Shown: positions 7,747 through 9,634 of the stretch, piece after piece | Numbering within the stretch: position 1 is the stretch's first letter | Layout: every line of letters starts with the position of its first letter | Assembly: GCA_030616165.1 (NCBI GenBank) | Contig: JAUWXV010000141.1 | Location: 1-9,634, forward strand | Direction: 5' to 3' | Origin: a bacterium | Lineage (GTDB): Bacteria > SM23-31 > JAUVVT01 | DNA: 9,634 nt | Position numbers and translations under genes: made by a program | The notes under the pieces: model-generated | The model's database searches: none | What the model saw: only the letters and a program-made list of their open reading frames with translations | What the model was told of the DNA's origin: nothing

Positions 7747-8517
7747 CTGAAAAATATAGAATGCCAATTTTGTGGGCAAAGGTTACTTTTAGATGCAAAT
7801 TTCTGCCATAAATGTGGTATGCCCATAAAAAATAAAATATGCTTTGAATGCGAAACACTAAATGATTATAATTCGAAGTTCTGTATCAACTGCGGAACAA
7901 AATTAGATTCTCTTAAGTATCCAAAAAAATATAAAGTTAAAGAGAAAAAAAGAAATGTAATTAAGAAGTCAAGAAATCCAGCAATATACTTTGGAATATT
8001 CATATTCATATCAGTGGTAATGTTATTCACATTTTTTAAAATAAATAATCTAAAATGGGAAGAGTCTGATAATAACAATATCACACAGCTTCAAATAAAT
8101 AATGACCTTTTAAATGAGATAGACATACTTAAAAAGAGGCTTCAAATAAATGCCAATGATGTTGAGTCGAGTATATTGCTTGGAAATATCTATTTTGATA
8201 TTGATAATAAGTCGGAGGCAATATTATACTATAAAAAAGCGCTTGGGATAGATTCCACAAACTCAGATGTTCGTGTGGATATGGCTATCTGTTATTATGA
8301 GTCAGGTGACCCGAATACCGCTATTAAAGAAATGGAAAAGAGCCTGAAATTTCAACCGAATCATTCCAAGGCACTTTACAATTTAGGTATAGTTAATTAC
8401 TCAACGGGTAACACAGCAACGGCTGCCCAATGGTGGAAAAAACTTCTGCTTGTGGAATCACAGGGCGAATTAGCAGATAAAGTGAAAGAATATTTAAATA
8501 AAATTACTGAACAATAA
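7747..8517 (+). CDS. membrane-anchored double zinc ribbon and TPR protein (function unknown)
   Basis: Two CxxC...CxxC zinc ribbons stand at the N-terminus: the first with CQFCG and FCHKCG (encoded 7762-7818), the second with CFEC and FCINCG. A lysine/arginine-rich linker leads to one transmembrane helix (about residues 79-97, IYFGIFIFISVVMLFTFF), a short acidic linker, a coil, and three TPR units (VESSILLGNIYFD..., SDVRVDMAICYYE..., SKALYNLGIVNYS...). Positive charge before the helix suggests ribbons in the cytoplasm and TPRs outside. The first ATG in frame (7819) would destroy ribbon one, since its four cysteines lie upstream; the frame is open back to the HU stop, and the only plausible start is CTG at 7747 behind GGAG. 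This gives 256 residues. The architecture suggests a scaffold; substrate and partners are not visible. The start remains the uncertain part. Confidence 0.85.
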   Translation: MKNIECQFCGQRLLLDANFCHKCGMPIKNKICFECETLNDYNSKFCINCGTKLDSLKYPKKYKVKEKKRNVIKKSRNPAIYFGIFIFISVVMLFTFFKINNLKWEESDNNNITQLQINNDLLNEIDILKKRLQINANDVESSILLGNIYFDIDNKSEAILYYKKALGIDSTNSDVRVDMAICYYESGDPNTAIKEMEKSLKFQPNHSKALYNLGIVNYSTGNTATAAQWWKKLLLVESQGELADKVKEYLNKITEQ

Positions 8518-8577
8518 AATTCATCTTAAAAAGTTGTTCTTATCCAAATTATGCGTAATCAATAAAATGAGTTATAT

Positions 8578-8583
8578 TATAAT
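8578..8583 (+). promoter_or_regulatory. TATAAT -10-like hexamer before the last gene
   Basis: A perfect TATAAT lies 83 bases before the ATG at 8667 in a 149-base AT-rich spacer. No convincing -35 hexamer is found at 16-18 bases. It is the best promoter candidate for the last gene but is weakly supported. Confidence 0.25.
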
Positions 8584-8666
8584 AGCAAAACACAAAAAGA
8601 AAAAAACTTATAAATAAAATAAAGTAATAGAATTAAAACATCAAAAACCACACAGCTAAAGAAGTC

Positions 8667-9634
8667 ATGAGTAATGTGAAGAATATAAATATTTCTGAAC
8701 AACCAATTTCTCAAATTTCTGATTTGATTCCGGAAATTAAAATCCTTAAAAATACTCTTATGAAAAATCAACTTTATAAACTTTGTGATACTAAAATAAG
8801 TAAGATCGAATATAAACTTAAAAACTCGCTTTACATTCCTTATACCACCGCTGAGGACAAGTTGAATCTTAATAAAGATTTTTACAATGCTGTATGCAAG
8901 TGGCTACTTCAGTTTCCCGAAGATAAAAGACTCGGTTTTCTCTTAATAGCGTTGAGTATTATATATGTAACTGAAAAAGAAATGGATACATTTTTAGAAA
9001 TAGCTATTGAAAAATTATGTCAAGCTATTAAAGAAAAGGAAGGTAAAACATTTGGGATTTTAAAAGGCATAGAGGGTGTAAAGCATAAAATTATCCCTTT
9101 TCCTCTTTCAGATTCCGGTATTTACGATAAATTTATTCATAAAATGGGGATAGAGAGTACATTGGATAGGAATAGAAGACCTTTCAGAGGCCAATTAGGG
9201 GAATATCTTTATGATATTTTTCAAAATCTTAGACAGTTAGCTGAAACAGATAAAAAGTATATATATTGGGAAATGTGGTTAGCTAAGATAAAAGAATTAA
9301 TACGTTCTTTCTTAAACTCCTACATTATATTAGTTGAAGATTATACATTTTCAGGACGTACTATAAAAAGTGATATTCAAAAGCTATTAGATTTGATAAA
9401 GATTGTTTTTGAACCGTTTAAGAAAAGCATAGAAACCCAGGGGTATAAATTACCTTATTTTTTTATTTTTGTACCTATAGCAACAGACAGTGCATTAAAG
9501 GAAATAAATAGTACATTCTCTGGAAATACAATAGCAGGAAGCTATTTCCATTCCCCTACAACTGGTTATATATTCGATTATACTTATAGGGCAAATACGG
9601 ATATTCCACAGAATATTAGGGAACTTAAGGATAT
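8667..9634 (+). CDS. putative phosphoribosyltransferase-fold protein (PRTase-CE-like), 3' partial
   Basis: The frame runs from ATG 8667 to the window end without a stop: 322 residues, C-terminus missing. ATG 8667 is the first start after an in-frame TAA at 8634-8636; the site before it (AAAGAAG) is weak. The N-terminal half is helical, with QFPEDKRLGFLLIAL at 82-96. A hydrophobic strand then leads into the key motif, ILVEDYTFSGRTI (221-233): strand, acidic pair E224-D225 and a small S229-G-R-T loop, the pattern by which type I phosphoribosyltransferases bind PRPP. A second strand (YFFIFVP, 264-270) follows, as expected in a Rossmann-like fold. The layout resembles the PRTase-CE family described from conflict and immunity loci, in which the motif often reads DDFxGTG. 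The reaction and partners are unknown. It is the only accessory-looking gene here. I recognised it by motif only; a different nucleotide-binding fold is possible. Confidence 0.72.
   Translation, partial: MSNVKNINISEQPISQISDLIPEIKILKNTLMKNQLYKLCDTKISKIEYKLKNSLYIPYTTAEDKLNLNKDFYNAVCKWLLQFPEDKRLGFLLIALSIIYVTEKEMDTFLEIAIEKLCQAIKEKEGKTFGILKGIEGVKHKIIPFPLSDSGIYDKFIHKMGIESTLDRNRRPFRGQLGEYLYDIFQNLRQLAETDKKYIYWEMWLAKIKELIRSFLNSYIILVEDYTFSGRTIKSDIQKLLDLIKIVFEPFKKSIETQGYKLPYFFIFVPIATDSALKEINSTFSGNTIAGSYFHSPTTGYIFDYTYRANTDIPQNIRELKD

Follow-up and report, generated by a model that had tools for sequence, protein, structure and literature searches.

Type III-A retrons carry a PRTase-CE gene followed by a reverse transcriptase gene, and their effectors have been described as PRTase/WH proteins (PMC12548924). 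We found this arrangement in five loci (L037, L040, L142, L143, and L147). A further system, from P2-like phages, combines DprA with a PRTase, as the authors name it, and blocks T7 and lambda (PMC9122126). In other loci the neighbor of the PRTase-CE gene is different. NADAR adjoins it in L144 and L145 and, judged by reading the translation, in L035 too; the NADAR-paired PRTase-CE proteins match the NCBIfam model NF053875 (DS32_1 anti-phage) at 310–399 bits, with a cut-off of 250. The name DS-32 points to the 'DS' systems of DefensePredictor, whose paper lists a PRTase in the legend of Fig. 4 and leaves DS-32 unnamed in its main text (PMC13092281). An ORC-CDC6-like ATPase accompanies PRTase-CE in L041, L138, L141, and L146, often together with HAD and PfkB genes, and such operons are present on rhizobial and other plasmids. 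In L038, a ParB-like gene precedes the PRTase-CE gene. These contexts support the role of a switchable effector for PRTase-CE, and the literature that we found does not describe the reaction catalyzed by these effectors.

When these neighborhoods are viewed across replicons, NADAR is seen beside or near PRTase-CE in several unrelated ones (L035, L138, L140, L144, and L145). The combination of NADAR with HAD, PfkB, and nucleoside deoxyribosyltransferase neighbors hints at the handling of ribosyl or nucleotide products.

The window analyzed here, 9,634 nucleotides, is an entire contig (1–9,634) of a metagenome-type bin of 3.74 Mb in 343 contigs that is 90% complete. Its last gene begins with an ATG at position 8,667 on the forward strand and runs without a stop to the end at 9,634; whole codons extend to 9,632, yielding 322 amino acids (8,667–9,634, +). 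Thus, the preliminary description was correct in reporting a long frame open at the window edge, and because the window is the whole contig, the truncation represents a physical contig end rather than a cut made in choosing the window. The longest stop-free run in the other five frames over this gene is 79 codons, and its GC content by codon position (36/29/24%) is like that of the neighboring genes. Since the rival frames are broken and the codon-position GC agrees with the neighbors, we conclude that the frame is a real coding gene. We looked for its continuation in the bin. The last 75 bases overlap no other contig, and a PNNxxP-type pattern, used to find the C-terminal piece, occurred in 12 places of the bin, all of which read like chance translations.

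The preliminary description had guessed at a PRTase-CE protein, a reading that a profile search placing the protein in another family would have contradicted. The search upheld the guess. The Pfam PRTase-CE profile (PF24390), whose cut-off is 27 bits, matched with a score of 43.9, residues 76–289 being aligned to positions 1–165 of the 253-position profile, and there was no confident placement in another family; in particular, the query gave no match to PF00156 at E≤1. Approximately one third of the PF24390 profile, including the conserved 'GYG...PNN...W..LFPR' tail, corresponds to sequence beyond the contig end.

The PF24390 cut-off by itself is not specific, because the PRPP synthetase of the same genome (ribose-phosphate pyrophosphokinase, positions 15,699–16,646, + strand, on contig C227) passes it at 28.1 bits. 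PF24390 matches exist elsewhere in the genome, and this was the one examined. The PRPP synthetase aligns through its PRPP loop, to profile positions 92–177 only and without the helix motif. We therefore tested the two halves of the query separately. Residues 60–200 alone matched profile positions 1–47 (18.0 bits, E 0.0028), and residues 201–322 alone matched positions 103–166 (27.1 bits), so that the helix half and the PRPP-loop half are colinear in the profile. A custom profile that we built from 19 collected PRTase-CE proteins revealed the same two pieces, a WLxQF helix segment at residues 72–120 and a loop-helix-strand core at residues 218–288, and it scored the query at 27.0 bits compared to a best score of 7.0 among 1000 shuffled queries. 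Because each half matches PF24390 alone and colinearly, and given the shuffle test, the PRPP-loop motif is more than a chance occurrence. It is the N-terminal helix match that separates the query from the PRPP synthetase, and since the latter passes the cut-off, PF24390 matches close to that cut-off are not to be trusted without it. Judged from these profile comparisons, the assignment of the query to PRTase-CE is solid.

The motifs named in the preliminary description lie where it had placed them. The N-terminal helical segment (8,880–9,026, +; residues 72–120) contains the WLxQF motif as WLLQF at residues 79–83, within a helix motif that extends to residue 91 and includes QFPEDKRLGF (82–91). 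The PRPP-loop core (9,318–9,530, +; residues 218–288) consists of a strand, the loop motif ILVEDYTFSGRTI (221–233), a helix, and a second strand, YFFIFVPIATD (264–274), whose core lies at about 264–270 with YFFIFV at 264–269. A single-sequence AlphaFold2 model of the 322-residue fragment had a mean pLDDT of 37, too low for a confident structure. The loop itself, VEDYTFSGRT at residues 223–232, fits the pattern [DE]Dxx[FGT][ST]G. It had been called divergent on account of ED and S-G-R-T. The first residue is indeed E rather than D, but the loop is less odd than was claimed since relatives show partial precedents: xFSGxR loops occur in the NADAR-paired clade (YLDDFLFSGNRL and YLDDGLFSGGRI), and rhizobial III-A proteins have the loop VTDLIGSG with a non-acidic first position.

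The protein is only 12–22% identical to the other PRTase-CE proteins with which it was aligned. Peptide-pattern scans of GTDB-species contigs and of viral contigs found no close relatives, and translations from motif-based DNA scans gave only unrelated proteins or proteins of other families. Likewise, neither tblastn against plasmids and phages nor a search of 60 relatives revealed a close relative. A search of 385 genomes from a different phylum gave a single match, to a penicillin-binding protein, which we rejected as spurious. The query is a distant member of PRTase-CE with no close relative in any of the collections searched.

A separate family of ~345 amino acids was also observed, in L083, L094, L097, L104, L105, L115, L119, L121, L131, and the viral contig L074, which are mostly Patescibacteria records. 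Its members have a conserved [IV]EDG[ATS]F[ST]G loop and match PF00156 and PRTase-CE weakly (16.8 and 15.5 bits, respectively, for L121). By its sequence it looks like an undescribed PRTase-type family.

The gene order on the contig, in which genes outside the profile scans are named from their translations, is response regulator, ffh, rpsP, KH, rimM, trmD, rplS, LysM/SLT, sppA (S49), HU, zinc-ribbon/TPR, and PRTase-CE. No defense genes were seen upstream of the PRTase-CE gene in the window, and the window contains no RNA families or tRNAs. The gene between HU and PRTase-CE (7,819–8,517) encodes a protein with a zinc ribbon, a membrane segment, and TPR repeats. An AT-rich gap of 149 bp (21% GC; 8,518–8,666) separates it from the PRTase-CE gene. 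No terminator-like site was found in this gap; a promoter-like match (9/12) at 8,493–8,520 (+) overlaps its start, and such matches are no more common there than in shuffled sequence. The nearest relative of the same class that keeps the order LysM/SLT, sppA, HU has xseA next, then an apparent dxs and nadK (again named from translations), without the TPR and PRTase-CE genes at that position. Because xseA occupies the site after HU in this relative, the site is variable. PRTase-CE homologues were absent from the other five genomes of the phylum, both at E≤1e-5 at the protein level and at the family cut-off. Restriction of the gene to one lineage among the six phylum genomes is as expected for a defense-type gene but is not proof of such a function.

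Taken together, we think it probable that the truncated gene encodes an effector with the type I phosphoribosyltransferase fold, of the PRTase-CE family, belonging to an anti-phage module. For this protein we infer an effector role, PRPP binding, and activation controlled by a partner. The N-terminal helical segment with its WLxQF motif would dock to a partner encoded in the same module; the neighborhoods of relatives suggest a retron reverse transcriptase, an ORC-CDC6-like ATPase, or a ParB-like or NADAR protein for this part. Upon sensing infection, the partner would release or activate the PRTase core, which may use its ED-Y-T-F-S-G-R-T loop to bind PRPP or a nucleotide of the phosphoribosyl type. 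Transfer or cleavage of phosphoribose could then disturb the pools of nucleotides or cofactors and thereby stop phage replication or halt the infected cell. No partner gene lies within the contig; if downstream, it would lie past the contig end.

Which partner this might be can be considered by comparing the query with the known clades. A type III-A retron effector, in which the PRTase-CE part, possibly with a C-terminal winged helix, would be followed by an ncRNA and a reverse transcriptase past the contig end, is improbable. The best match of the query among defense models is indeed to PADLOC PRTase_III-A (25.6 bits, 1.6e-6), and in III-A loci the reverse transcriptase gene lies downstream, which here is beyond the edge. 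However, this score is near those of PRTase-CE proteins that have no reverse transcriptase neighbor (43 bits for L041 and 36 for L035) and far from the 383–463 bits of two proteins that do; furthermore, there was no match to wHTH-PRTase_assc over the cut-off, and a search of the 90%-complete bin detected no reverse transcriptase, a result that speaks against a retron. A module of PRTase-CE with an ORC-CDC6-like ATPase is less doubtful but still unlikely. The profile of the ORC-paired clade gave the top clade score for the query (12.8 bits, reached by 0 of 1000 shuffles), and two ORC-paired proteins of our genome sample ranked first by phmmer, but the III-A clade scored nearly the same (12.0 bits), such that the two are not separable. 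The bin does have a gene for an ORC-CDC6-like/AAA ATPase with a C-terminal cold-shock-like domain (7,805–9,502, +, on contig C217), which is likewise cut by a contig end. Its match is below the cut-off (18.2 of 27 bits), and it leaves its contig in an orientation that bars a simple co-directional operon with the PRTase-CE gene; consequently, we regard it as a lead only.

A metabolic PRTase or a PRTase-related regulator with no role in defense would account for the shared PRPP loop, for weak PyrR-type matches (E about 0.1), and for the housekeeping genes upstream. We nevertheless consider this as improbable as a retron effector, given that PF00156 was not matched, that the helix motif is present in the query but not in the control PRPP synthetase, and that the other phylum genomes have no homologue. 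A further reading, tentative and rather unlikely, is a previously unsampled PRTase-CE lineage with a partner of its own that is neither a reverse transcriptase, nor NADAR, nor an ORC-CDC6-like ATPase; the phylum is represented by six species genomes in our comparison.

A truncated orphan by itself changes little. The protein nevertheless brings the PRTase-CE effector family, with its presumed fold, to a bacterial phylum of which few members have been sampled, and it illustrates how far the family can diverge with both hallmarks, the helix and the PRPP loop, kept. Divergent members of this kind may help to tell partner-binding from catalytic positions.

Compared to the described systems, the query shares with the retron III-A PRTases (PADLOC PDLC02931–PDLC02935) the predicted fold family and its best weak match, whereas the two reverse transcriptase-paired members score 383–463 bits, and neither a winged helix in the query nor a reverse transcriptase in the bin was seen. 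With the DS-32 PRTase-like anti-phage protein (NF053875), which is encoded beside NADAR in the loci that we examined, it has in common the predicted fold family and an FSG-type PRPP loop, but it scores 18.7 bits (7.9e-4) and does not reach the equivalog cut-off of 250, and its contig carries no NADAR gene. The PRTase-CE and ORC-CDC6-like operons have an ATPase gene beside PRTase-CE, and none is visible on this contig, which ends inside the PRTase-CE gene; like their PRTase-CE proteins, the query has an N-terminal extension of ~50 amino acids before the WLxQF helix, and among the clade profiles theirs scores it highest, although the lead is small and not significant. Relative to PF24390 as a whole, the query covers only profile positions 1–165, owing to the contig end, and has E rather than D as the first loop residue, but the helical WLxQF N-terminus, the PRPP loop, and the strand and helix that come after it are all present and in the same order.
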